From positions 248,001 through 312,000 of the forward strand of contig NZ_VIYJ01000002.1 of assembly GCF_008087085.1 (NCBI RefSeq): a stretch of DNA of 64,000 nucleotides, in the 5' to 3' direction. How positions within the stretch are numbered: position 1 is the first letter of the stretch; the number at the start of each line of letters is the position of its first letter. The notes beneath the pieces are model-generated. The model saw only the letters and a program-made list of their open reading frames with translations. It did not search any database and had not been told where the DNA came from. The translations under genes were made by a program, and so were the position numbers. This document shows positions 41,955 through 55,754 of this stretch, piece by piece. The DNA is from Nocardioides rubriscoriae (GTDB taxonomy: Bacteria; Actinomycetota; Actinomycetes; Propionibacteriales; Nocardioidaceae).

Positions 41955-41965
41955 GCCGCGCTCAC
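41951..41965. terminator. Palindrome enclosing two convergent stop codons
   Basis: GTGAGC-CGC-GCTCAC is a perfect inverted repeat in the 7-bp gap between two converging genes. Both TGA stops lie inside the arms. It may act as a short bidirectional terminator. Confidence 0.45.
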
Positions 41966-42888
41966 GCGGCGACGCGGAAGCCGATGTTGCCGGTGTGGTC
42001 GGTCAGCAGGTTCTTGTCGCGGGCCGCGACGCGGTAGCGGTTGCAGTAGGAGTCGTGGCACAGGTAGGAACCACCGCGCCGGACCCGCTGCTCGGGGTCG
42101 ACGACGCCGTCGAGCGACCACGGGTCGGCGGTCCACTCCCAGACGTTGCCGGAGGCCTGGTAGAGCCCGTAGCCGTTGGGCCGGTGGGTCTTGACCGGGG
42201 TGGTGCCCACGGCGGCCGGTCCGCCCTCGTGGCGCACCGGGAAGTCACCGCGCCAGATCGTGCACGGCGGCGTCCGCAGCGACTCGGGGTGCTCGTCGCC
42301 CCAGGGGTACGTCGCCCCCTCGAGACCGCCGCGCGCCGCGCGCTCCCACTCGGCCTCGGTCGGCAGCCGGGTGCCGCTCCACGCGCAGTAGGCCTCGGCG
42401 TCACCGACCGAGACGTGCACGACGGGGTGCTGCGCCATCCGCCCGGCGTCGCTGCCGGGGCCGTGGGGGTGGCGCCAGTCGGCGCCGTCGACGCCGAGCC
42501 ACCACTCGGCCCCACCGGCCCGGCCGCGCACGGCCGCGGGGTCGGCGACCAGCAGGTGGAAGACGAACGACCAGCCGGTCCGCTCGGCCTCGGTGACGTG
42601 GCCGGTGGCCTTGACGAAGGTCGCGAACTGCTGGTTGGTCACCGTCGTCGCGCCGATCCGGAAGGCCGCGACCTCGACGTCGCGTACCGGTCCCTCGCCC
42701 TCTCCCGGGTTGACCAGGAGGCCGTCGTCGCCCATCGCGAACGTCCCGGCCGGTACGTCGACCAGACCGGTCGCGCGGACCCGGGCGGCTCGTGCGACGG
42801 GCGCGACCGGCGCAGCTGACGCTGGCGCGGTCTCCGGGTCCTCGGTGCGCGAGGGGGCGCAGCACGAGTGCCCGGGACCCGACTCCAT
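41962..42888 (-). CDS. Formylglycine-generating enzyme
   Basis: A 308-residue FGE/SUMF1-family protein that converts a cysteine in type I sulfatases to formylglycine. Both catalytic cysteines are present five residues apart, as in the human enzyme: Cys277 and Cys282 in GGSYLCHDSYCNRYR. The copper-dependent actinobacterial type is likely. Other family motifs are GNVWEW, LPTEAEWERAARGG, and the N-terminal HSCCAPSR. No sulfatase gene is in the window. The start (MESGPGHSCC) follows a leaderless -10 (TAGGCT, 42901-42896). Confidence 0.93.
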   Translation of the reverse strand: MESGPGHSCCAPSRTEDPETAPASAAPVAPVARAARVRATGLVDVPAGTFAMGDDGLLVNPGEGEGPVRDVEVAAFRIGATTVTNQQFATFVKATGHVTEAERTGWSFVFHLLVADPAAVRGRAGGAEWWLGVDGADWRHPHGPGSDAGRMAQHPVVHVSVGDAEAYCAWSGTRLPTEAEWERAARGGLEGATYPWGDEHPESLRTPPCTIWRGDFPVRHEGGPAAVGTTPVKTHRPNGYGLYQASGNVWEWTADPWSLDGVVDPEQRVRRGGSYLCHDSYCNRYRVAARDKNLLTDHTGNIGFRVAA

Positions 42889-42901
42889 GACCGCCAGCCT
42901 A
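42889..42901 (-). promoter_or_regulatory. Leaderless -10 (TAGGCT) for the formylglycine-generating enzyme
   Basis: On the minus strand TAGGCT (42901-42896) ends 7 nt before the ATG at 42888. The divergent chromate transporter starts 86 bp away at GTG 42975 with GACGCT 6 nt upstream, a weaker leaderless -10. Confidence 0.55.
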
Positions 42902-42974
42902 GTGAGCGACGCCTCGGACCCCGATCGGTCCGGTCCAGCACCGGTCGTCCACCTCGGTCTGGGACGCTTCGGCG

Positions 42975-44339
42975 GTGACCACGGCACGGCGACCCGACGA
43001 CGTCATCTCGCTGAGGACAGCCGCCGGGGCGTGGTTCCTGATCTCCCTGCAGACCTTCGGCGGACCCGCCGGCCAGATCGCGGTCATGCAGCGCACGCTG
43101 GTCGACGAGCGCCGGTGGGTCGGTCAGCAGCGCTTCCTCTTCGCGCTGTCCTACTGCACCCTGCTGCCCGGCCCCGAGGCGCAGCAGCTGGCGACCTACG
43201 TCGGCTGGCTGCTCAACGGCCTGCGCGGCGCCCTGGTGGCCGGGATCCTCTTCGTGCTGCCCGGCGTGGTCGCGATCATGGCCCTGTCGGTCGTCTATGT
43301 CTCCTACGGCGACACGACCGTGCTCGACGGGCTGTTCCTCGGCCTGGGGCCGGCGGTGCTGGCGATCGTCGTGCAGGCGGTGGTCCGGGTCGCGGGCAAG
43401 GGCCTGACCCACCCGGCCCTCGTGGCGGTCGCCGCCGCGTCGTTCGTGGCCCTCACCTTCCTTGCGGTGCCGTTCCCGGTCGTGGTCGCGGCGGCCGCCG
43501 CGACCGGCTGGGTGCTGGGGCGGCGCTACCCGTCGTTCGCGCGGCCGGCACCGGTGGGCGCCGCCGACGGCCCCGCCCCGCTCGTCCCCGACGACGCCCT
43601 GCACAGCGAGCGGCCCACGGTGCGGCGCTCGGTGCTGGTGCTGGTCGTCGGGCTGCTGCTGTGGACGACCCCGGTGCTCCTGGCCGGGGCCGTGCTCGGC
43701 CGCCAGAGCATCCTGGTCGACCAGGGCCTGTTCTTCGGCGGCACCGCGGTCGTCTCCTTCGGCGGCGCCTACGCGGTGCTGGCCTTCGTCGCCCAGCGCG
43801 CCGTCGAGGTCTACGGCTGGCTCGCGCCGGGGGAGATGGTGCGCGGTCTCGCGCTGGCCGAGACCACGCCGGGGCCACTGATCATGGTGGTGCAGTTCGT
43901 GGCCTTCGTCGGCGCCTACCGCGACCCCGGTGCGCTCGCCCCGTGGGTCGCGGCCGTCCTGGCCGCCCTGCTCACCACCTGGGTCACCTTCGTCCCGAGC
44001 TTCGTGTTCATCCTGCTCGGGGCGCCGTACGTCGAGCGGTTGCGGGGCAACCGGGCCCTGGCCTGCGCGCTGGCGGGCATCACCGCGGCGGTCGTCGGGG
44101 TGATCGCGAGCCTGGCGCTCTACTTCTCCCTGCACACGCTGTTCGACCAGACCCGTCACCTCTCGCCGTGGCTGCTGTCGTTCGACGTGCCCCGCCTCGC
44201 GACCGTGCGCTGGGACGCCGTGGCGATGGCCGGGCTCGGCTTCGCGCTCGTCCTCGGGGCGCGGTGGAGCGTGCTGCGCACGCTGGGGGTCTGCGCCGCC
44301 GTCGGCCTGGCGGTCGGGGTGGCGCGCAGCCTGGCGTGA
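42975..44339 (+). CDS. chrA: Chromate transporter (ChrA type, two-domain)
   Basis: A 454-residue membrane protein with two CHR domains. The duplicated signature is seen as FGGPAGQIAVMQ...LLPGPEAQQLATYVG in the first half and SFGGAYAVL...LAETTPGPLIMVVQFVAF in the second, separated by a charged loop. About ten hydrophobic segments are present. ChrA proteins export chromate; close homologues may move other oxyanions. The gene is divergent from the formylglycine-generating enzyme and has no chrB or chrC neighbour. Confidence 0.92.
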   Translation: MTTARRPDDVISLRTAAGAWFLISLQTFGGPAGQIAVMQRTLVDERRWVGQQRFLFALSYCTLLPGPEAQQLATYVGWLLNGLRGALVAGILFVLPGVVAIMALSVVYVSYGDTTVLDGLFLGLGPAVLAIVVQAVVRVAGKGLTHPALVAVAAASFVALTFLAVPFPVVVAAAAATGWVLGRRYPSFARPAPVGAADGPAPLVPDDALHSERPTVRRSVLVLVVGLLLWTTPVLLAGAVLGRQSILVDQGLFFGGTAVVSFGGAYAVLAFVAQRAVEVYGWLAPGEMVRGLALAETTPGPLIMVVQFVAFVGAYRDPGALAPWVAAVLAALLTTWVTFVPSFVFILLGAPYVERLRGNRALACALAGITAAVVGVIASLALYFSLHTLFDQTRHLSPWLLSFDVPRLATVRWDAVAMAGLGFALVLGARWSVLRTLGVCAAVGLAVGVARSLA

Positions 44340-44358: not shown

Positions 44359-46755
44359 TCAGCCGGCGATCGCCGCGAGCACCACCAGCACGGCCACGCC
44401 GGCCAGCCCCACCAGCAGTGCGTGACGGCCGAGGGGGGCCAGGGCCTGCGCCGGGCCCCGCGACGTCGTGCTGCCGGTCCCAGTCGCGGTCCCGGTCCCG
44501 GCCAGCGCTGCCGCCACCACACCGCCGGTGGCCGCGACGACCAGGAGCCGGCCCACCGGGAGGTCGACGCCCGCGAGCAGGTCGGGGTCGGGCGTGCGAC
44601 CGGTGGCCAGCAGCCAGGCGCCGACGGCGCCGTAGGCGACCACGGCCGCGGTGAGCGTCACCGCCCCGGCCCGCGAGGCCAGGAACGCCCCGACGGCGCG
44701 CCGGTGGACGCCGAGCACGAGCCCGTGCACCAGCAGCAGCTGCCACACCAGGGGCGGGAAGGCGTCGACGACCTGCGCCGGCGACCACTGCGGGTCCCAG
44801 GCCCGGCCCACGGCCCACAGGGCCCACGACAGCACCAGCGCGAGCCACCACGACCGGCGTACGAGCCACAGCGCGGCGGGGGTCACCACCGCCAGCAGCA
44901 CGAACAGGCCGAGCATCGAGGTGACCCACGGGCCGACCTCCAGCAGGAGCAGGCGTCGCGCCGGTCCCCACGGGGTCGGGTAGTCGAAGAGGCGGTCGGC
45001 GTCGGGGAAGAGCTGTCGGCGCTCCCTGGTGGCAGGGTCGGTGATCGAGGTGAGGCGCCCCAGGTCGACCCCCGGCACCACGGACACGACGTGCACGACG
45101 AGCGCCGTGGCCACGGCCGCGAGGTAGAGCATCAGGGCCCGGCGGACCGCCGGCACGGCCGGCGCCACCGCCAGGGCGAGGCCCGAGACCACGACGAGAC
45201 CCTCCGGCACCGGCACCGACCCCAGGACCGTGCGCACGGCGTCGCGCTCGCCGAGCAGGACGACGGCGCTGCCCACGAGCGCGACGGCCACCAGCAGGCC
45301 CCGCACCGCGTCGAGCCGCGGGTCGCGCGCCCCGGCCTCGCCTCCGGGCGCCGGCCCCGGATCCGGCGTCGCCGAGGTCGGGCGCGAGCGCCGGACCACG
45401 ACGGCCGCCAGGAGCAGCAGCAGGACCCCGGCCGCCAGGGTCATGCCCAGCGCAGTCGGCGCGGGCGTCACCGTCGGCACGACGTCGCTGGTCGGATCGG
45501 GGAGCTCGCGCGCGCCGTCACCCGGCCCACCGGGCACGCCCGGCCCGCCCGTGCCGCCGGGACCGCCGGTCCCGCCGGTCCCGTACGGGTCCTCGACGAC
45601 CTTGCTCACCGGGCCGAGGTCGACCGAGGACGTCGACAGGTCGGCGCGGATCGCGCGCGCGATCTCGGGGTCGACAGTCACGCGCCAGTCGACGGCCTGG
45701 GTGGCGACCTCGGGCTCGATGCGGTTGACCTCGAGCCAGCTGATCAGCCCGATCAGCGGGTGGTCGGCGGCCGAGCCGAAGACCTGGCGCCACCACGACC
45801 GCTTCAGCGCGAGCTCGCTGGCCCCCGGCACCGCCGGGTTGTACAACGCGGAGGTCTGCACGAGCATCGGCCGGTCGCCGTCGGCGGCGAAGCGGTCGTA
45901 GAAGCTGGCGCGGCCGGCGTCGTCGCCGTACCCCCAGGTCTCCTGCAGCCGGGCGGTGAACTCGCCGCGTGGGACGACGTTGCGCTCGATGCCCTGGTCC
46001 TGGCCGAAGCGGTAGAGGGTCAGGCCCACCCAGTCGACGACGTCGTCACCGGGGAAGTAGGGGCCGTAAGGGTCGTCGCGCCGGGTCAGGCGCCCGTCGC
46101 CGTCGGTGTCGAGGGGACCCGACTCGCGCTGCTCGGACAGGTCGCGGGCGCCGTCGGCGTCGCGGTAGGGGTACCCGGAGCCGTAGACCGGCGACCACAC
46201 GGTCTCGACGTGGGGCGCGGTCGTGGCCAGGGCGGCGGCCAGGGTGCGGAACGCCGCGATGAAGGCGTCGGGCTGCTGGCCCCATGGCTCCCACGAGCCG
46301 TTCATCTCCGCGGCGAACCGCACCAGGAACCACGTGCCGAGCTCGTCGTGGAGCGTGTCGAGCATCCGCCCGAGGTCCTCGGCGTCGGCGGTCGTCAGCC
46401 CGGCCAGCCCGGCGCGCGGCTGCAGGTCGAGGACGACGACCGAGCCGAGCGTCGAGATCGCCCGCACCTGGCGCTCGAGGAACACCTGGTCGTCGGCCAC
46501 GACCGGGTAGTCGATCTGGAAGGTGAACGACGAGGGTGAGGCCCCCAGGTCGTCGGCGTAGTCGGCCGGGACGGCCGTCTCGATGTCGAGCTCGGGCCCG
46601 AACCACGGGTGACCGGGCTCCGGTCGCGGCATCGTCGCGTCGCCGTCGGCGGCGCCGGCGGCGCTGCCGGCCGAGGTGCCCAGCAGCACGACCAGGGAGA
46701 GCGCCAGCAGCGGGGACAGCAGGACACCGAGGGCGCGACGAGACGGCGACGCCAC
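44359..46755 (-). CDS. GH26-like glycoside hydrolase fused to polytopic membrane domain
   Basis: A 798-residue protein. After a signal segment (about 8-36), residues 45-345 resemble a GH26 barrel: the acid/base Glu150 is in RFAAEMNGSWEPWG. Where GH26 enzymes carry the nucleophile Glu, the aligned region reads PMLVQTSALY (Gln300), so activity is uncertain. DTDGDGRLTRRD (216-227) looks like an EF-hand-type calcium site. A Gly/Pro linker (about 375-400) leads to a polytopic domain with about ten membrane segments, containing LDAVRGLLVAVALV, similar in style to OpgC/acyltransferase proteins. It is the last gene of the five-gene operon, 2 nt after the previous stop, and probably modifies or trims the polymer. 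Confidence 0.75.
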   Translation of the reverse strand: MASPSRRALGVLLSPLLALSLVVLLGTSAGSAAGAADGDATMPRPEPGHPWFGPELDIETAVPADYADDLGASPSSFTFQIDYPVVADDQVFLERQVRAISTLGSVVVLDLQPRAGLAGLTTADAEDLGRMLDTLHDELGTWFLVRFAAEMNGSWEPWGQQPDAFIAAFRTLAAALATTAPHVETVWSPVYGSGYPYRDADGARDLSEQRESGPLDTDGDGRLTRRDDPYGPYFPGDDVVDWVGLTLYRFGQDQGIERNVVPRGEFTARLQETWGYGDDAGRASFYDRFAADGDRPMLVQTSALYNPAVPGASELALKRSWWRQVFGSAADHPLIGLISWLEVNRIEPEVATQAVDWRVTVDPEIARAIRADLSTSSVDLGPVSKVVEDPYGTGGTGGPGGTGGPGVPGGPGDGARELPDPTSDVVPTVTPAPTALGMTLAAGVLLLLLAAVVVRRSRPTSATPDPGPAPGGEAGARDPRLDAVRGLLVAVALVGSAVVLLGERDAVRTVLGSVPVPEGLVVVSGLALAVAPAVPAVRRALMLYLAAVATALVVHVVSVVPGVDLGRLTSITDPATRERRQLFPDADRLFDYPTPWGPARRLLLLEVGPWVTSMLGLFVLLAVVTPAALWLVRRSWWLALVLSWALWAVGRAWDPQWSPAQVVDAFPPLVWQLLLVHGLVLGVHRRAVGAFLASRAGAVTLTAAVVAYGAVGAWLLATGRTPDPDLLAGVDLPVGRLLVVAATGGVVAAALAGTGTATGTGSTTSRGPAQALAPLGRHALLVGLAGVAVLVVLAAIAG

Positions 46756-46757
46756 GG

Positions 46758-47207
46758 TCAGCTGCCGCCCCGCAGCACCACGAGGTCCCAGAGGTTGCGC
46801 CCGTCGATGCGTCGGTAGGACAGGCTGTCGAGAGCCGCCTTCGCCAGCGCCAGGCCGCGACCGTCCTCGGCCAGCTCGTCGGGCATCGTGGCCTTGCTGA
46901 GGTCCATCTCGACCGGGATCCCGTTGTCGCCCAGTCGTGCGACGACGTCGTCGCGGCCGACGTCGAGGACGATGTCGAAGCGGCGTCCGTCGCCGGGTGC
47001 GCTGCCGACCAGGGCGTGCTCGACGATGTTGCCGAGGATCTCGATCACGGAGGTCTCGAACCTCACCCGCTGCTGCGCGGTGACCTCGTGGGTCGTCCAC
47101 AGGTGGGCCATCATCGCGTGCACCAGCTCGAGGATCTCGGGCGTCGCCGGGGCGGAGAGCTCCAGGCGACCGTCGCGTCCGGTGTAGTCGGGCACGGGGT
47201 CAGTCAT
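46758..47207 (-). CDS. RsbW-like anti-sigma/serine kinase ATPase
   Basis: A 149-residue HATPase_c protein of the RsbW group. The N box is IEILGNIVEHA, the G1 box DNGIPVE, and the G2-like box EDGRGLALAKAALDSL. Such proteins bind and phosphorylate a STAS antagonist or hold another target. It overlaps the STAS gene by 8 bases, so the two are made together. No sigma factor lies nearby, so the target may be the glycosyltransferase or another partner. Confidence 0.9.
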   Translation of the reverse strand: MTDPVPDYTGRDGRLELSAPATPEILELVHAMMAHLWTTHEVTAQQRVRFETSVIEILGNIVEHALVGSAPGDGRRFDIVLDVGRDDVVARLGDNGIPVEMDLSKATMPDELAEDGRGLALAKAALDSLSYRRIDGRNLWDLVVLRGGS

Positions 47208-47535
47208 CGAAGGCGCCGTCGACGGAGGGACGAGGCCGCAGGATGCGGTCGAGGTTGGTCAGCTCGAAGACCGACAGCACCGCGGGGGAGACCCGGGCCA
47301 CCCGGAGGTCACCGCCGGCCTGCCGGGCGGTCTTGAGACCGCCGATGAGCGCCCCGAGACCGGAGGAGTCGACGAAGGTCGTCTCGCCCAGGTCGACCAC
47401 GATCCGTGAGGTGCCCCGCTCGACGAGGCCGACCAGCACCTCCCGCAGGCGGCGTGCCGACACCATGTTGAGGCGACCCTCGGGGGTCACCACCCCGACC
47501 CCGTCGGCCCGGGTCTCGACGCCGAACTCGGTCAT
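47200..47535 (-). CDS. STAS domain anti-sigma factor antagonist (RsbV-like)
   Basis: A 111-residue STAS protein. The phosphorylation site DSSGLGAL (Ser57/Ser58) is intact, as in RsbV/SpoIIAA. When unphosphorylated it should bind the RsbW-like ATPase encoded next; phosphorylation would release it. It overlaps the glycosyltransferase gene by ATGA and the ATPase gene by 8 bases. It sits between a phosphatase, a synthase and a kinase, which places the switch inside the operon. Confidence 0.93.
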   Translation of the reverse strand: MTEFGVETRADGVGVVTPEGRLNMVSARRLREVLVGLVERGTSRIVVDLGETTFVDSSGLGALIGGLKTARQAGGDLRVARVSPAVLSVFELTNLDRILRPRPSVDGAFDD

Positions 47536-49568
47536 GATGCTCCTTCTGTGGTGCGGTCGGTGGTGCGGTCGGTGGTGCGGGGTGAGGTGTGATCGTCGTC
47601 GGCGACCTCAGGCACGTCGTCCACGCCCGCAACGGGCGCGAATCCGCGGTAGCGCGCCGCCTGGATGATGACGGAGAAGATCAGCAGGTCGAAGGCGACC
47701 CACACGAGGTTGAACGCCGTCCCGGGCACGTTGGCCTGACCGGTCGCGACCCGGACGACGCCGGCGACGGCCGCGACGACCAGCAGCGCCATGGCCCACA
47801 GCTGGGGACGCACCAGGTGCCAGGCGGGCCCCTGTGGCTCGCGCCGCGTCTTGGGGGTCACGGCGAAGTCGAGGCTGCGACCGCGGAAGACGTTGCCGAA
47901 CGCGGTGGTGACCGACGCGATCCACACCGGGAACAGCGCCAGCGAGTACTGCTGGCCGCGCCAGGTCGGCCGGCCGTCGGCGACGACCCAGAACAGCAGC
48001 TGGTTGACCACCAGGAAGGGCACCAGCCGAATGAAGAACTCGGTGCTCAGCGCCGAGACGGGCAGGATGCCGAGCGTGAGGTAGACCACCGGCGCCGCGA
48101 TGTAGACCAGCGCGGCGAACCCCGCGAGGTAGCTCCACATGGTCGCGAAGTACATCAGCCGCTGGGCGATCGTGAGGCCGCGCTGCACCAGGGGGTTCTC
48201 GCGGAACATCACCTGCATCGTGCCCTGGGCCCAGCGCAGCCGCTGGGTGAGCATGGTCTGCAGGTCCTCGGGCGCCAGCCCGTGCGCCAGGACCTCGTCG
48301 TGGTAGGCCGATCGCCACCCCAGGCCGTGCAGCCGCATGCAGGTGGCCATGTCCTCGGTGACCGAGATGGTGGCCAGCGGCATGATCGCCTGCGCCTCGC
48401 CGGACCGGTCGACGTCGACGGCCTCGACCAGCGCCTGCACGGTCTCGACCGCGCCCAGCGGCGACCAGTCGCGGTGGGCCAGCTGCTGCAGGACCCCCTC
48501 GTCGACGTCGGCGAACACGAGGTCGGGGTCGGCACCGATGCCCTCGAGCTCGGCGATGGCGGCGAGGTCGGACTGCAGGGTCTGCAGGTCGGCCGCCACC
48601 AGCTGTCGGCGCACGTCGGCGACGCGCTGCTGGAAGCGGTAGGTGACGTCGTACAGCGCGGCGCCGCCGCTGATCGCGCGGCGCGCCTCGGTGACCTCGC
48701 GGGCGATCGAGTCGAGGGCCTCGCGCACCACGACGTCGTCGCGGGCCACCGAGCGGCGGGCCTGGCGCAGCACCGCGCGGGCGGTGCGCAGGGCGCGGTG
48801 GACGCCGAGCTCGACCTCGCCGACGTAGCGTGAGACACCGAGCTGCATCATCGCCTCGCGGCGGATCACGGCGTTGGACCCGCAGAAGAACGCGGCGTTC
48901 CACCCGTCCTTGCCCTGCTGGATCGGACCGTAGAACAGCGGCGCCTGGCTCCCGAGCGGGTCGTGGTCGGGCACGTTCTCGAACCACTGCGGGGTCTGCA
49001 CCATCGCCATCTTCTCGTCGGCGAAGTAGCCGAGCGTCTTGTCGAGGATGTCGGGCAGCGGCACCTGGTCGGCGTCGAGGATGAGGAAGAACTCGCCCTC
49101 GGTGGCGAGCAGGGCGTTGTTGAGGTTGCCGGCCTTGGCGTGGCGCGGCATGCCGGCCCAGTCGGCGGAGCGCGTGAGCCACTCGATGCCCTCGGCCTCG
49201 GCGGCGCGGCGCATCTCGGGGCGGTTGCCGTCGTCGAGCACGTAGGTGCGGTGCGGGTAGGTGATCGCCTGGGCGGCCCGCGCCGTGCGCATGACCAGGT
49301 CGATGGGCTCGTTGTAGGTCGCGATGAAGACGTCGACGGTCAGGCCCGGCTCGGGGGGCGGCGGGGTGTCGCGGTCGCGCAGGCGCCACATGGTGAGCCC
49401 GAAGAGCAACGAGTCGACGAGGCTGTAGGTCTCGGCGACCACGAGGGGCACCGCGATCCACCAGGCGTCCCAGTTGACCGAGACCAGCCACCGCCAGGCG
49501 ACGTAGTTGACGCCGAGGAGCGCCGTCAGGACGACGATCACCCGGACCACGAGCAGCCGGAGGTTCAC
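47532..49568 (-). CDS. Cellulose-synthase-like family 2 glycosyltransferase
   Basis: A 678-residue processive GT2 enzyme with two N-terminal and several C-terminal membrane segments. The catalytic signature is complete: DDGN (112-115), DADQ (165-168), TED (404-406) and QRLRW (442-446). The acceptor-channel region FCGSNAVIRREAM ends near 240, but the TED motif comes only at 404. About 155 helical residues are inserted where BcsA has about 10. There is no PilZ domain, so c-di-GMP control of the BcsA kind is unlikely. The tail repeats TTDR. The gene overlaps its neighbours on both sides, GTGA at the start and ATGA at the end. Confidence 0.88.
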   Translation of the reverse strand: MNLRLLVVRVIVVLTALLGVNYVAWRWLVSVNWDAWWIAVPLVVAETYSLVDSLLFGLTMWRLRDRDTPPPPEPGLTVDVFIATYNEPIDLVMRTARAAQAITYPHRTYVLDDGNRPEMRRAAEAEGIEWLTRSADWAGMPRHAKAGNLNNALLATEGEFFLILDADQVPLPDILDKTLGYFADEKMAMVQTPQWFENVPDHDPLGSQAPLFYGPIQQGKDGWNAAFFCGSNAVIRREAMMQLGVSRYVGEVELGVHRALRTARAVLRQARRSVARDDVVVREALDSIAREVTEARRAISGGAALYDVTYRFQQRVADVRRQLVAADLQTLQSDLAAIAELEGIGADPDLVFADVDEGVLQQLAHRDWSPLGAVETVQALVEAVDVDRSGEAQAIMPLATISVTEDMATCMRLHGLGWRSAYHDEVLAHGLAPEDLQTMLTQRLRWAQGTMQVMFRENPLVQRGLTIAQRLMYFATMWSYLAGFAALVYIAAPVVYLTLGILPVSALSTEFFIRLVPFLVVNQLLFWVVADGRPTWRGQQYSLALFPVWIASVTTAFGNVFRGRSLDFAVTPKTRREPQGPAWHLVRPQLWAMALLVVAAVAGVVRVATGQANVPGTAFNLVWVAFDLLIFSVIIQAARYRGFAPVAGVDDVPEVADDDHTSPRTTDRTTDRTTEGAS
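47551..47580. repeat. 12-bp tandem repeat in the glycosyltransferase tail
   Basis: GTGCGGTCGGTG occurs 2.5 times in tandem. On the minus strand it encodes the Thr-Thr-Asp-Arg repeats at the C-terminus. Because the unit is a multiple of 3, copy-number change would alter tail length without a frameshift. Confidence 0.75.
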
Positions 49569-50764
49569 CGCCCGCCCTCCGTGCCGCGGAACACCGCCAC
49601 CGCGGTCACGTCGTCGAGCGGGACCCCGTCGCGGGAGAGCCGGGCCAGGGCGGCCAGGAGGTCGGTGGTGTCGCGCGCGGCTCTCACCAGCTCGGCCAGC
49701 GGCTCCCACCAGGTGAGGGGGTCGTCGAGGAGGTCGAGGACGCCGTCGCTGAGGACGAGCAGGCGCGCCCCGGGCGCCATGGTGGCGGTGTGCTCGGTCC
49801 AGGAGTCGTCGTCGAGGATGCCGAAGGGCCGGTCCCGGCTGCTCAGGCGCCGCGTGGTGCCGTCGGGCTCGACCAGCAGGCACAGCCCCGACCCGGCATC
49901 GACGTAGCGCACCGTGCCGTCGCGCAGGTCGAGGACGGCGCGGAACAGCGTGACGAACGAGGTGGCCCGCTCGAGGTCGGAGATCAGGCTGCGGGCGACC
50001 CGGGTGGTGGTGGCGCCCAGGTCGGCCCCGCCGGCGACCTCGTCGTCGGTGGCGCGCAGCGCGGCGCGCACGCCGGCACCGACGAGCGCGGCCCCGGTGC
50101 CCTTGCCCATGACGTCGGCCAGGCTCAGGTGGGCGACGTCGCCGGCCAGGCCGTGGTCGTAGAAGTCGCCCCCGACCGCGAGCGCCGGCACGCAGGCCCC
50201 GGCGATCTCCCAGCCGTGGGCGCGGATGGGGTGCGCGGGCAGCATCGAGGCCTGAACCTGACCGGCCTGCCTCATCTCGCTCGACGCGGTCAGCTCCTGC
50301 TGGGCCCAGCAGGCCAGGTCGAGGAAGGCGACCAGCAGGTCACCCTCGAGCGTGCGGGGTCGGCTGTCGTAGAGGCAGAAGGTGCCGATCACGTGCCCGG
50401 CCGGGTCGTGCAGCGGCTGGCCGGCGTAGAAGCGGATGGCGCCGGCCCGCACGGCCGGGAGGTCCTTGAAGCGCTCGTCCTGGGTGGCGTCCTCGACGAG
50501 GATCAGCTGGTCCTCGGCCGTCGTGCGGTCGCAGAAGGTCTCGTTGCGCGGGGCCTCGGTGACGTCGAGCCCGGCCGACCCCGGGAACCAGGCGCGGTCG
50601 CCGTCGAGGACCGTGATGGTCGACAGCGGGACGCCGAACATGGTGCGGGCCATCCGGGTGAGCCGGTCGAAGCGCTCGGTCTGGGGGTCGTCGAGCAGCT
50701 GCAGGCTCTCGACGGCCCGTTGCCGGTGCCGTTCGACGGCCTCCGTACGGGCACCGGACGTCAT
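49565..50764 (-). CDS. GAF domain-SpoIIE-type serine phosphatase (RsbU-like)
   Basis: A 399-residue cytoplasmic protein. Residues about 20-165 are a GAF sensor domain (TITVLDGDRAWFPGSAG, ETFCDRT, FYAGQPLHDPAGHVIGTFCLYD). Residues about 185-395 are a PP2C/SpoIIE phosphatase with the metal-binding motifs GGDFYD, LADVMGKGTGAAL and LSDGVLDLLDD. It should dephosphorylate the STAS protein encoded two genes downstream, in response to a ligand or redox signal at GAF. It is the first gene of the operon, with a GGAAGG site and an ATG start, and overlaps the glycosyltransferase start by GTGA. Confidence 0.92.
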   Translation of the reverse strand: MTSGARTEAVERHRQRAVESLQLLDDPQTERFDRLTRMARTMFGVPLSTITVLDGDRAWFPGSAGLDVTEAPRNETFCDRTTAEDQLILVEDATQDERFKDLPAVRAGAIRFYAGQPLHDPAGHVIGTFCLYDSRPRTLEGDLLVAFLDLACWAQQELTASSEMRQAGQVQASMLPAHPIRAHGWEIAGACVPALAVGGDFYDHGLAGDVAHLSLADVMGKGTGAALVGAGVRAALRATDDEVAGGADLGATTTRVARSLISDLERATSFVTLFRAVLDLRDGTVRYVDAGSGLCLLVEPDGTTRRLSSRDRPFGILDDDSWTEHTATMAPGARLLVLSDGVLDLLDDPLTWWEPLAELVRAARDTTDLLAALARLSRDGVPLDDVTAVAVFRGTEGGR

Positions 50765-50918
50765 CGTGGTCGCCTTCCTCGAGATCGCTGCGCACGAGCC
50801 CGTCGGGGTGACGGGTCGAGCAGACGGGCAGGGCGGCTCTGCCCCAGCCTGTCTATCGGCAGGCCGTGCCCGTTCCTTGAGGTGTTCATGCCCGTCCCCG
50901 CGGACCGGGACCGAGCGC

Positions 50919-51696: not shown

Positions 51697-52470
51697 ATGG
51701 CGCTCAGCGCTGCGGGCGTCATCCGCGGGCCCGGCGAGGTGGCGGTGATGACCGTCGACGTGGTCAAGCGCCTGTTCACCACGCGCTTCCAGTTCCGCGA
51801 GTTCGTCGAGCAGGCGTGGTTCATCACCAGCGTCACCCTGATGCCGACGATCCTGGTCTCGATCCCGTTCGGAGCGGTCATCTCGCTCCAGGTCGGCAAC
51901 CTCACCGGCCAGCTCGGCGCCCAGTCCTTCGCCGGGGCGACCGCCGTGCTCGCGGTGGTGCGCGAGGCCGCACCGATCGCCGCCGCGCTGATCATCGCCG
52001 GGGCCGCGGGCTCCGCGATCTGCTCCGACATGGGCGCCCGCAAGATCCGCGAGGAGATCGACGCCATGGAGGTCCTCGGCGTCGATCCGCTCGAGCGCCT
52101 GGTCGCGCCCCGGGTCGCGGCGACGATGTTCGTGGCCCTGATGATCATCGGCATCGTCATCGGTGCCGGCATCGGCGGCGGCTACTTCTTCACCGTGATC
52201 GTCCAGGGCGGCTCGGCCGGGGCGTTCTTGTCGAACTTCACCGCCCTCGCCTCGATCAGCGACCTCTACATCGCGATCATCAAGGCCGTCGTGTTCGGCG
52301 CGATGGCCGCGATCGTCGGCGCCTACAAGGGTCTCAACGCCGGCGGCGGCCCCAGCGGCGTGGGGCGTGCGGTCAACGAGTCGGTGATCATCGCCTTCAT
52401 GCTGCTGTTCTTCATGAACGCGGTGATCACGGCGATCTACTTCCAGGTCGTCCCCCCGGTGGGCATCTGA
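51697..52470 (+). CDS. yrbE4A: MlaE/YrbE-type ABC permease, YrbE4A
   Basis: A 257-residue integral membrane protein of the MlaE permease family. Characteristic stretches are LVSIPFGAVISLQVG and the cytoplasmic EEIDAMEVLGVDPLERLVAPR, the conserved motif of these permeases. Together with YrbE4B it forms the membrane part of the Mce4 lipid importer, in mycobacteria used for cholesterol uptake. The ATPase (MceG) is usually encoded elsewhere and is not in this window. Start: ATG with GGAAGG 10 nt upstream. Confidence 0.94.
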   Translation: MALSAAGVIRGPGEVAVMTVDVVKRLFTTRFQFREFVEQAWFITSVTLMPTILVSIPFGAVISLQVGNLTGQLGAQSFAGATAVLAVVREAAPIAAALIIAGAAGSAICSDMGARKIREEIDAMEVLGVDPLERLVAPRVAATMFVALMIIGIVIGAGIGGGYFFTVIVQGGSAGAFLSNFTALASISDLYIAIIKAVVFGAMAAIVGAYKGLNAGGGPSGVGRAVNESVIIAFMLLFFMNAVITAIYFQVVPPVGI

Positions 52471-53309
52471 TGGCCTCTCTCGGATCGGTCGCCGGCGCGG
52501 CCCTCAAGGCTCCCCGGCGCTCCCTCGAGGGCTACGGCGACCAGCTGCTGTTCTACGTCCGCGCCCTGGTCTGGGTGCCGCGCGCGATCCGCCGCTACCC
52601 GCGCGAGATCACCGCGACCCTCGCCGAGGTGACCTTCGGCTCGGGCGCCCTCGCCCTGATCGCGGGCAGCGTCGGCGTGATCGCGTTCCTCGCCTTCTTC
52701 GCCGGCACCGAGGTCGGCATCCAGGGCTACGCCTCGCTGAGCCAGATCGGCGTCGCGAAGTTCAGCGCGTTCATCTCCGCCTACTTCAACACTCGCGAGG
52801 TCGCGCCGCTGATCTCCTCGATCGCCCTGGCCGCCACCGTCGGGTGCGGCTACACCGCCCGCCTGGGCGCGATGCGGATCTCGGAGGAGATCGACGCCCT
52901 CGAGGTGATGGGCATCCCGTCGCTGCCGTTCCTGGTCACGACCCGGATGATCGCGGCGTTCGTCGCCGTCATCCCGCTCTACATCGTGGCGCTCAGCGCG
53001 TCGTACCTGTCGCCGCGCCTGATCGTCGTCCACGTCTACGGCCAGTCCAGCGGCACCTACGACCACTACTTCCTGCAGTTCCTGCCGCCGATCGACATCC
53101 TGTGGTCCTTCGCCAAGCTGCTGTTCCTCGCCGCGGCGATCATCCTGATCCACTGCTACTACGGCTACACGGCCTCCGGCGGGCCGGCCGGCGTCGGTCA
53201 GGCGGTCGGCCGAGCCATCCGCACCAGCATCGTCTTCACGGTGGTCGCCGACTTCTTCCTGAGCTTCGCCATCTGGGGCTCCACGACCACGGTGCGGATC
53301 ACCGGATGA
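52470..53309 (+). CDS. yrbE4B: MlaE/YrbE-type ABC permease, YrbE4B
   Basis: A 279-residue permease, the partner of YrbE4A. The motif EEIDALEVMGIPSLPFLVTTR corresponds to that of YrbE4A (one stretch cited). The stop of yrbE4A and this start share one base (TGATG), so the two subunits are translated together, matching their expected one-to-one complex. Confidence 0.94.
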   Translation: MASLGSVAGAALKAPRRSLEGYGDQLLFYVRALVWVPRAIRRYPREITATLAEVTFGSGALALIAGSVGVIAFLAFFAGTEVGIQGYASLSQIGVAKFSAFISAYFNTREVAPLISSIALAATVGCGYTARLGAMRISEEIDALEVMGIPSLPFLVTTRMIAAFVAVIPLYIVALSASYLSPRLIVVHVYGQSSGTYDHYFLQFLPPIDILWSFAKLLFLAAAIILIHCYYGYTASGGPAGVGQAVGRAIRTSIVFTVVADFFLSFAIWGSTTTVRITG

Positions 53310-53322
53310 GCGGGGCCCCCTG

Positions 53323-54669
53323 ATGCCGCTGCTGGTCAACATCCACCACGACACCGCGCGCGAGCACCGGCGCCTGCTCGTCGCCGGCATCGCCTTCCTC
53401 ACGAGCATGGCCCTGCTGGTGGCGCTGTCGATCGCGATCTACGACAAGAAGTTCGTCGACGTGACCACCGTCGTCATCCGTGCCGACCGCGCCGGCCTCC
53501 AGCTGGCCACGTTCGGCGACGTACGCCGCCACGGCGTCCTGATCGGGCAGGTCCGCAGCGTCTCCGAGGTCGACGGCGAGGCCGAGATCGAGGTCGCCCT
53601 CGACCCGGCCGCCGCGCGCGACATCCCCGACAACGCGACCGTCCAGATCCTGCCGACGACCCTGTTCGGCCAGAAGTTCGTCTCGTTCGTCGACCCCGCC
53701 ACCCCGTCACCGACCGCGCTGGCGCCCGGCGCGGTGATCCCCTCGTCGCGCGTCGAGACCAACGTCGAGCTGAGCCGGATCCTGGCCGACCTGTTCCCAC
53801 TGCTGCGCGCGGTCCGCCCCGCCGACCTCAACGCGACGCTCAACGCCCTGTCCGACGCCCTCGAGGGCCGCGGCGACCAGCTCGGCGGCACCCTCGACGA
53901 CCTCGACCGCTACCTCACCGGCATCCAGGGCTCCCTGCCCACGCTCAAGCAGGACCTCGGGCTGATCGCCGACGTGGCCGACACCTACGACCTCGCAGCC
54001 CCCGACCTGCTGCGCGTGCTCGGCAACCTCACCGTCACCAGCCGCACCGTGCTGCAGAAGAAGCAGTCGCTCGACGTCTTCTTCGGCGATCTGACCGGGC
54101 TGGCCGACACCAGCCGCACGATCCTGGCGGCCAACGAGTCCGACCTCATCGAGGTGGGCGAGGTCGGCGCCCCCGTCCTCAAGCTGCTGGCGACCTACTC
54201 ACCCGAGCTGCCGTGCCTGCTCAAGGGAGCAGCGCGCTACGCCCCCATCCTGTCGCGAACCTTCGAGGGCAACCAGGTCAAGCAGTACATCGAGATCGGT
54301 TCCGCCCAGTACGGCGCCTACACCCGCGACGACCTGCCGAAGTACGGCGAGATCGGCCACGGCCCCTGGTGCTCGGGCCTGCCCTACCCGCCGGTGCCGA
54401 TCGGCCCGGTCCGGTTCGACGACGGCACCGACATCGACGACGACCCGCCCACCAGCGACGTGCCGGTGCTGCCGCTGCCGCGCAGCGCGCCCGGGTGGAC
54501 CCGGCGCAGCGGCTTCGGCGTCGGCATGTCGAGCGGGTACGCCGGCACCGCGGGGGAGCAGCAGGTCGTCAACGCGCTGCTGTCCGACCGCACCGGCCGC
54601 CCCGCCGACGCCTACGGCTCGCTCGGCTCCCTGCTCTACGGCCCCGTCGTGCGCGGGGGTGCGCGATGA
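53323..54669 (+). CDS. mce4A: Mce family protein, Mce4A
   Basis: A 448-residue MCE protein with an N-terminal membrane anchor (about 19-39) and one MlaD domain (about 45-125: VIRADRAGLQLATFGDVRRHGV, cited in part). A long helical region (about 150-290) forms the channel in Mce complexes. The C-terminus is Pro-rich. It is the first of six mce subunits, starts 13 nt after yrbE4B, and overlaps mce4B by ATGA. The Mce4 name rests on the KstR-like box and on fdxD and an SDR nearby. Confidence 0.92.
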   Translation: MPLLVNIHHDTAREHRRLLVAGIAFLTSMALLVALSIAIYDKKFVDVTTVVIRADRAGLQLATFGDVRRHGVLIGQVRSVSEVDGEAEIEVALDPAAARDIPDNATVQILPTTLFGQKFVSFVDPATPSPTALAPGAVIPSSRVETNVELSRILADLFPLLRAVRPADLNATLNALSDALEGRGDQLGGTLDDLDRYLTGIQGSLPTLKQDLGLIADVADTYDLAAPDLLRVLGNLTVTSRTVLQKKQSLDVFFGDLTGLADTSRTILAANESDLIEVGEVGAPVLKLLATYSPELPCLLKGAARYAPILSRTFEGNQVKQYIEIGSAQYGAYTRDDLPKYGEIGHGPWCSGLPYPPVPIGPVRFDDGTDIDDDPPTSDVPVLPLPRSAPGWTRRSGFGVGMSSGYAGTAGEQQVVNALLSDRTGRPADAYGSLGSLLYGPVVRGGAR

Positions 54670-55754
54670 CCGGCGCCTCCACCCGCAACAGCACGACCGT
54701 CGCGGCCGGCATCAAGCTCGGCGTCTTCACGGTGGTGTCCCTGCTGGTCACCGGGCTGCTCGCCGTGATCATGGGCAACATCGGTTTCGGCGACAGCCGC
54801 ACCTACCGGGCCGAGTTCGTCGAGGCCAGCTCGCTGGAGAAGGGCGACGACGTCCGCGTGGCCGGGGTCAGCGTCGGCGAGGTCACCGCCGTCGAGCACT
54901 ACGGCGACGACAACGCCAACGCACTGGTGACCTTCCGGGTCGAGGCCGACGTACCGCTGACCACCGCGTCGCTGGCCAGGGTCAAGTTCCTCAACCTCGT
55001 CGGCGACCGCTACCTCGCGCTCGAGGAGGGCGTCGACAAGGGCGCCAGCAGGCTCGGTGACAACGGCCTGATCACCATGGACCACACCGAGCCGGCGCTC
55101 GACCTCACCGCGCTGTTCAACGGCTTCAAGCCGCTCTTCCAGGCGCTGCGGCCCGAGGACGTCAACGAGCTGTCGATGAACATCGTCCAGGTGCTGCAGG
55201 GCGAGGGCGGCACCGTCGCGTCGCTGCTGGCCAACACCGCCTCGCTCACCAACACCCTCGCCGACCGCGACCAGCTGATCGGCGAGGTCGTCGACAACCT
55301 CGGCACCACCCTCGAGACCGTCGACTCGCGCCACGTGCAGCTCGAGCGACTGATCGTCGAGCTGCGCGACTGGATGGGCGACCTGGCCGACGACCGTCAG
55401 ACCATCGGACGCTCGCTGGCCAGCATCTCCGACCTCACCGCCGTGGTCGCCGACCTGCTGCAGGAGGGGCGCCCGTTGCTCCAGGGCGACATCGCCGAGC
55501 TGCGCACGCTCTCCCGCCTGCTCAACGAGCCGGAGAACAAGAAGCTCGTCGTCGAGATCTTCGACCGGCTGCCCGAGTCGATGACCGACCAGACCCGCAC
55601 CGGCACCTACGGCTCTTGGTACAACTACTACATCTGCGGCTTCTCCGGGAAGATCACCCTGCCGGTCATCAGCGGGCTGCCGATCATCAAGCAGCTCAAC
55701 CAGCAGCTCAACAGCATCGACTTCCGCTCCACGGCCCCCAGGTGCAATCCATGA
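54666..55754 (+). CDS. mce4B: Mce family protein, Mce4B
   Basis: A 362-residue MCE subunit with a membrane anchor (about 17-39), an MlaD domain (about 45-125: EASSLEKGDDVRVAGVSVG) and a helical region. It lacks a long C-terminal tail, as usual for MceB. Its stop overlaps the start of a 24-codon ORF (ATGA), where other genes in the operon overlap the next mce gene directly. Confidence 0.92.
   Translation: MTGASTRNSTTVAAGIKLGVFTVVSLLVTGLLAVIMGNIGFGDSRTYRAEFVEASSLEKGDDVRVAGVSVGEVTAVEHYGDDNANALVTFRVEADVPLTTASLARVKFLNLVGDRYLALEEGVDKGASRLGDNGLITMDHTEPALDLTALFNGFKPLFQALRPEDVNELSMNIVQVLQGEGGTVASLLANTASLTNTLADRDQLIGEVVDNLGTTLETVDSRHVQLERLIVELRDWMGDLADDRQTIGRSLASISDLTAVVADLLQEGRPLLQGDIAELRTLSRLLNEPENKKLVVEIFDRLPESMTDQTRTGTYGSWYNYYICGFSGKITLPVISGLPIIKQLNQQLNSIDFRSTAPRCNP

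Follow-up and report, generated by a model that had tools for sequence, protein, structure and literature searches.

Cellulose-type synthases are known chiefly as enzymes controlled by cyclic di-GMP (c-di-GMP), and partner switches are known chiefly as controllers of sigma factors. The five-gene operon described here, in which a cellulose-synthase-like enzyme is encoded among the proteins of a partner switch, lies in a 64,000-nucleotide stretch of the Nocardioides rubriscoriae genome (assembly GCF_008087085.1, contig NZ_VIYJ01000002.1, positions 248,001 to 312,000 of the forward strand), referred to below as the window. Three described systems are close to it as a whole. In Vibrio fischeri, a STAS protein under serine kinase/phosphatase control (SypA/SypE) governs polysaccharide-dependent biofilm formation (PMC4517449, PMC8256260); the target of SypA is given as unknown (PMC4517449), kinase and phosphatase are joined in one protein, and the excerpts of these papers describe no operon around a BcsA-like synthase. 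In Pseudomonas aeruginosa, a SpoIIE-type phosphatase and a kinase set the state of the STAS-like SiaC, a direct activator of SiaD (PMC7647112). According to the excerpted text the client there is a diguanylate cyclase, whereas the client proposed here is the polymer synthase itself. The HmpUVW partner switch of Nostoc is tied to motility and polysaccharide, and is not described in the excerpts of PMC8256260 as built around a processive synthase. By analogy with these accounts, the present operon would work most like SiaC-SiaD and like SypA/SypE.

The individual parts of the operon are more familiar. Its switch proteins belong to the same three families as RsbU/RsbV/RsbW and SpoIIE/SpoIIAA/SpoIIAB of Bacillus, with the STAS serine conserved and the RsbW N-box and GRG kept. 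They differ from the Bacillus switches in that the operon has no sigma gene, four genomes with the system lack a SigB/F/G-type match, the switch accompanies the synthase one-to-one, and the Asp of the RsbW G1 box is often missing. The synthase shares with BcsA the common GT2 core, TED, QxxRW, the gating motif FxVTPK and the fold, but unlike c-di-GMP-controlled BcsA it has no PilZ domain, carries an insertion of about 153 residues before TED, and scores far below the equivalog cut-off. The parts are therefore those of RsbU/V/W and BcsA, while the whole lacks some of the features that define the sigma-B module and some that define BcsA proper. We consider it fairly probable, judging from the sequences and their conservation, that the operon contains the gene of a polysaccharide synthase which is independent of c-di-GMP, switched by phosphorylation and directly controlled by the partner switch. 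Searches of the open-licence PMC literature gave no description of this operon, and other literature may hold one. Its features, in transcription order and window positions, are:

49565-50764, minus strand: GAF-SpoIIE (PPM) phosphatase, first gene (Pfam SpoIIE 2.4e-26, GAF 4.5e-10)
47532-49568, minus strand: BcsA-like processive GT2 synthase without PilZ, GTG start (Pfam Cellulose_synt 5.6e-19; TIGR03030 345 bits; structure model)
48378-48836, minus strand: helical insertion of about 153 residues in the synthase (residues 249-401 of protein P0002), between FFCGS..QLG and ATISVTED, proposed docking site of the switch (BcsA alignment)
47200-47535, minus strand: single-domain STAS protein, RsbV/SpoIIAA-like, with DSSG phosphorylation motif (Pfam STAS 4.7e-18; TIGR00377 72 bits, cut-off 53)
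46758-47207, minus strand: RsbW/SpoIIAB-like GHKL ATPase, putative serine kinase (Pfam HATPase_c_2 1.5e-9)
44359-46755, minus strand: secreted or membrane protein with a GH26-fold domain and an OpgC_C membrane domain (Pfam OpgC_C 2.4e-22; GH26 by profile and fold)
45556-46650, minus strand: GH26 domain of this fifth gene

Adjacent genes overlap by 4 (SpoIIE/GT2), 4 (GT2/STAS) and 8 bases (STAS/RsbW), and a 2-base gap precedes the fifth gene. An earlier note on this DNA, made from the letters alone, had listed five minus-strand genes in this order and with these spacings, and the coordinates agree. Pfam and NCBIfam back the names of the first four genes and, again as that note had it, return no sigma factor among the five. 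A SpoIIE-type phosphatase, a STAS protein with a phosphorylatable Ser and a GHKL ATPase thus occur together, as in a partner-switching module.

The synthase is BcsA-like by sequence and model, and is not BcsA proper. It contains the GT2 core, TED, QxxRW and the gating motif as FAVTPK, and its structure model aligns to BcsA with Z up to 33; its score against the BcsA equivalog TIGR03030 (344.9 bits) stays well under the cut-off of 699. The lack of PilZ noted earlier was borne out, with no Pfam match at E<=1. Alignment to Escherichia coli BcsA breaks at residue 248 and restarts at 402, so that the roughly 153 residues stand against one in BcsA; the "GT2 insertion" left undefined in the earlier note can be equated with this segment. 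FFCGS and TED are spaced 174-199 residues apart in 81 of 81 sequences (80 relatives and the window), the insertion being found in all. It is modelled as long helices, with the predicted local distance difference test (pLDDT) below 50 at residues 347-368, and its position is roughly what we take to be that of the class-specific region of plant CesA. The product of the enzyme is probably a beta-glucan, by analogy with its BcsA relatives and with the lichenase- or xylanase-like GH26 partner.

Gene order was compared in 80 relatives, the best of at least 583 confirmed candidates, which were picked by similarity, include close relatives and partly recur among the drawn genomes described below. SpoIIE, GT2, STAS and RsbW genes are directly adjacent on the same strand in 55 of these 80 loci, and GT2-STAS-RsbW in 61. 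GT2-RsbW without an adjacent STAS was seen in 12 loci, all Curtobacterium (L024, L028-L030, L032-L034, L036, L039, L040, L046, L048); neither gene adjoins the synthase in the remaining 7, of which L035 and L075 have the pair within 7 kb on the opposite strand. Among the relatives are members of Nocardioides, Arthrobacter, Paenarthrobacter, Clavibacter, Gordonia, Williamsia, Rhodococcus, Dietzia, Mycolicibacterium, Pseudonocardia and Kocuria. Overlaps were counted in 62 of 75 SpoIIE/GT2, 77 of 84 GT2/STAS and 82 of 86 STAS/RsbW pairs, all upper estimates, since start codons were chosen with a leaning to the 4-base overlap. Because the 80 loci had been chosen by similarity, genomes drawn evenly from the phylum (396) and from the class (393) were also used. 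Every intact insertion-bearing synthase fetched from these draws has STAS and RsbW adjacent (22 of 22), with SpoIIE upstream in 19. Relatives without the insertion numbered 36, comprising all 26 loci from the class draw and 10 of the 23 from the phylum draw; in each of them the alignment to the family model skips from position 246-248 to 400-406 with at most a few residues between, and neither STAS nor RsbW was found in any (0 of 36) within the flanks fetched, some of which were short (3.7-10 kb). A diverged paralogue (L131) and a synthase fragment (L132) are excluded from both counts, and neither has STAS and RsbW adjacent. The phylum draw gave five full-length synthase matches, all in the class of the window. 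Order and coupling thus recur widely, and the arrangement pointed out in the earlier note, which had named poor conservation in relatives as evidence against it, is more than a chance one.

The coupling of synthase and STAS was also found at the level of whole genomes. When the 393 class genomes were searched with 18 STAS proteins, 23 genomes scored at least 146 bits and nothing else exceeded 102, and these 23 are exactly the genomes with an intact synthase. Thirteen of the 23 positives had themselves gone into the search model (A2), and each of the 23 had been seen beside a synthase before, so that what the search adds is absence from the other 370 genomes, with the best 12 first-look candidates scored per genome (3 in the synthase search). 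Both genes occur in 10 of the 21 listed genomes of the window's genus, and neither occurs in the other 11; 5 of 11 genomes of a second genus of the family have both. Twelve genomes without a STAS gene next to the synthase were searched, 8 of Curtobacterium and 4 of Arthrobacter (L016, which is of the type of these Arthrobacter, was left out), and every one of them encodes a single STAS of the subfamily at another site. The link between synthase and switch survives separation of the genes, because STAS is kept in trans in these 12 of 12. What had looked like counter-evidence, an apparent absence of the switch from Curtobacterium and from a group of Arthrobacter, was set aside on the same ground. 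The distant STAS is adjoined by RsbW in 9 of 9 fetched of these 12 genomes, and by SpoIIE too in the four Arthrobacter. The five Curtobacterium genomes fetched have one RsbW beside the synthase and a second beside the distant STAS.

Since the module is homologous to RsbU/V/W, its RsbW might hold a SigB/F-type sigma factor encoded elsewhere that drives the operon or a wider surface regulon, the linkage then being autoregulation. SigB/F/G matches of at least 180 bits occur in 21 of 39 synthase-bearing genomes, and the window's genome has SigBFG matches as well. However, 18 of the 39 have no such match (named genomes, completeness not stated). In four of these 18 (Arthrobacter L035 and L069, Kocuria L058 and L073) the single match is of the RpoD/SigA type, exceeding the RpoD cut-off but reaching only about 130 bits as SigBFG (cut-off 234); G763, a 2.6-Mb metagenome-assembled genome with no sigma match at all, was left out of the four. 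The system thus occurs in genomes where no SigB/F/G-type sigma was found. Of these four, the two Kocuria show the complete cis order; in L069 no SpoIIE lies upstream, and the switch of L035 lies on the other strand. The operon contains no sigma gene, and the one motif tried and an 8-mer count revealed no conserved promoter motif. The motif, FliA/WhiG-like by what we take to be the consensus, lies at 50851-50880 (minus strand) upstream of the operon in the window. As GCCGA[AT]A it is found in 2 of 103 upstream regions, that of the window and that of L037, where it lies inside the gene, and it was dropped as a promoter lead because relatives do not share it. A sigma-70 scan gave no promoter-like site; its single terminator-like site, inside the synthase gene, is no more than chance would give. 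We regard this classical, sigma-directed reading as unlikely. The earlier note had held that binding only a sigma factor elsewhere would overturn its proposal; that prospect is weakened by the four genomes, but not for the window's genome, which has the SigB/F/G type.

Another possibility is that the switch governs some other non-sigma target, either a diguanylate cyclase or a different regulator, and that the synthase responds indirectly. There is precedent for it in the direct activation of SiaD by SiaC (excerpts of PMC7647112), and in the excerpts of PMC4517449 the target of SypA is unknown. GGDEF proteins are present in 16 of 25 synthase-bearing genomes of the same unstated completeness. 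They are missing at E<=1e-8 from the other 9, including two Kocuria and two Clavibacter, and the synthase has no PilZ through which c-di-GMP could be read. Two Kocuria with the full cis order gave neither a SigB/F/G-type sigma nor a GGDEF match. No extra gene was seen to accompany STAS and synthase, with only five families systematically mapped. This reading is considered quite improbable. Taken together, neither a SigB-type sigma nor c-di-GMP can be the general output of the switch, because four synthase-bearing genomes gave no match of the SigB/F/G type and 9 of 25 gave no GGDEF protein.

As for the switch proteins themselves, 85 of the 86 operon STAS copies carry the motif as DSSG and one carries DSSA. 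All 10 phosphatase copies scanned match the SpoIIE domain, accompanied by GAF in 7 and by a receiver domain in 3. Because this sensor domain varies and the synthase does not, action of the switch on the synthase is the simplest reading. The N-box E..N..H and GRG of RsbW are invariant in 22 aligned copies, and the window copy has the N-box, DxG and GRG and keeps the G1-box Asp. When loci are compared pairwise, identity is higher for STAS than for RsbW in 99.8% of pairs (means 0.56 vs 0.37, 82 loci), as would be expected if STAS has a further partner.

In the mechanism that we propose, the GT2 enzyme would polymerise and export a glycan, and the helical insertion in its catalytic domain would stand in place of PilZ. 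The RsbW-like kinase would phosphorylate STAS, and the GAF-SpoIIE phosphatase would dephosphorylate it upon a signal. The state of STAS and RsbW would then set the activity of the synthase by direct contact, probably at the insertion. In the preferred version unphosphorylated STAS would bind and activate the synthase, much as the diguanylate cyclase SiaD is activated by SiaC; in the other version RsbW would keep the synthase off until STAS draws RsbW away. The higher conservation of STAS and its one-to-one occurrence with the synthase speak for STAS as the contact.

Several observations weigh against this mechanism or parts of it. The G1-box Asp, expected for ATP binding, is missing in 30 of 98 operon RsbW copies, mostly from Arthrobacter and Kocuria relatives (both sigma-poor Kocuria and also L120). 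The copies without it include those of three sigma-poor genomes (L035, L058 and L073); the fourth, L069, keeps the residue. The kinase cycle is doubtful in such cases, with a possible loss of ATP binding; these RsbW proteins may act by binding only, or another kinase may serve. The contrast between STAS and RsbW conservation stands without a control, as 20 canonical sigma-module loci gave too few pairs and were unused. The Curtobacterium arrangement, in which RsbW and not STAS adjoins the synthase, would favour RsbW as the contact. Conservation is lower in the insertion, the presumed docking site, than in the remainder of the synthase (mean pairwise identity 0.44 vs 0.71, 82 loci). In the window's genome one SigBFG match exceeds the cut-off, two more are strong, and there are five GGDEF matches, so other clients (sigma or c-di-GMP) are possible in this organism. 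Moreover, the diverged paralogue L131 (5574-9261), with a shorter insertion, has no switch beside it, in a genome that also has the cis operon (L120). Direct control of the synthase is still the best reading from conservation and co-occurrence, in which the phosphorylation chemistry, the physical contact, the sign of control and the identity of the polymer are conjectural. The proposal in the earlier note that the switch controls polymer synthesis directly is partly supported, by the conserved order, the one-to-one occurrence of synthase and STAS and the lack of a general sigma or GGDEF dependence. The missing G1-box Asp counts against a uniform kinase mechanism.

The fifth gene is a GH26-OpgC fusion, its GH26 assignment resting on the family more than on the single protein. 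The whole protein gave no GH26 match against Pfam at E<=1, and the GH26 domain alone was sub-threshold (E 0.056); 29 of 34 family domains match PF02156 at E<=0.1, the best at 1.8e-10. The best PDB profile matches of the domain are GH26 enzymes. Its AlphaFold model (pLDDT 89) also aligns best to GH26 entries, with Z of 25.2 for a beta-1,3-xylanase, 24.9 for a lichenase, 22.7 for mannanases and about 19 for other barrels. The GH26-like call of the earlier note agrees with these family profiles and the fold, the OpgC domain and the altered active site being unmentioned there. With the catalytic positions placed where we presume the family motif to have them, the window domain keeps Glu115 and has Gln265 at the expected nucleophile, and thus one of the two catalytic Glu. 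Gln is likewise found at this position in L001, L010, L015 and L020, whereas further members carry other residues there. Some proteins of the family may therefore be binding proteins that have lost catalytic activity. The paralogous synthase L131 adjoins a GH26 gene without OpgC.

This membrane-bound protein offers a third alternative, in which a surface-polymer island is simply co-inherited and what the switch governs is the GH26-OpgC protein or export instead of the synthase. Its gene adjoins RsbW in the window and many relatives. Nevertheless, 39 of the 80 loci keep SpoIIE-GT2-STAS-RsbW without a GH26-OpgC gene directly downstream. Across the sampled class genomes synthase and STAS are found one-to-one, and they also occur together where they are not neighbours. 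We judge such mere linkage very improbable. The operon region is flanked at 41962-42987 by what we take, by eye, to be a formylglycine-generating-enzyme-like gene, and at about 51900-55700 by a presumed plus-strand operon of the YrbE/Mce type.

In many actinobacteria a cellulose-synthase-like enzyme without a c-di-GMP domain travels with a phosphatase, a STAS protein and a kinase-like protein, which points to phospho-control of polysaccharide synthesis. Going further, and with chances that we see as nearly balanced, these loci may form a distinct class of synthase-dependent polysaccharide systems in Actinomycetes, in which the synthase itself is the client of a serine-phosphorylation switch, the insertion replaces PilZ/c-di-GMP control, and phosphatases with GAF or receiver sensors are interchangeable. 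If true, this would explain how surface polymer is controlled in genomes that gave no GGDEF match, two Kocuria and two Clavibacter among them. The operon is compact and widespread, and the likely target of its switch is the product of a neighbouring gene; direct action of a partner switch on a polymer synthase therefore becomes testable.

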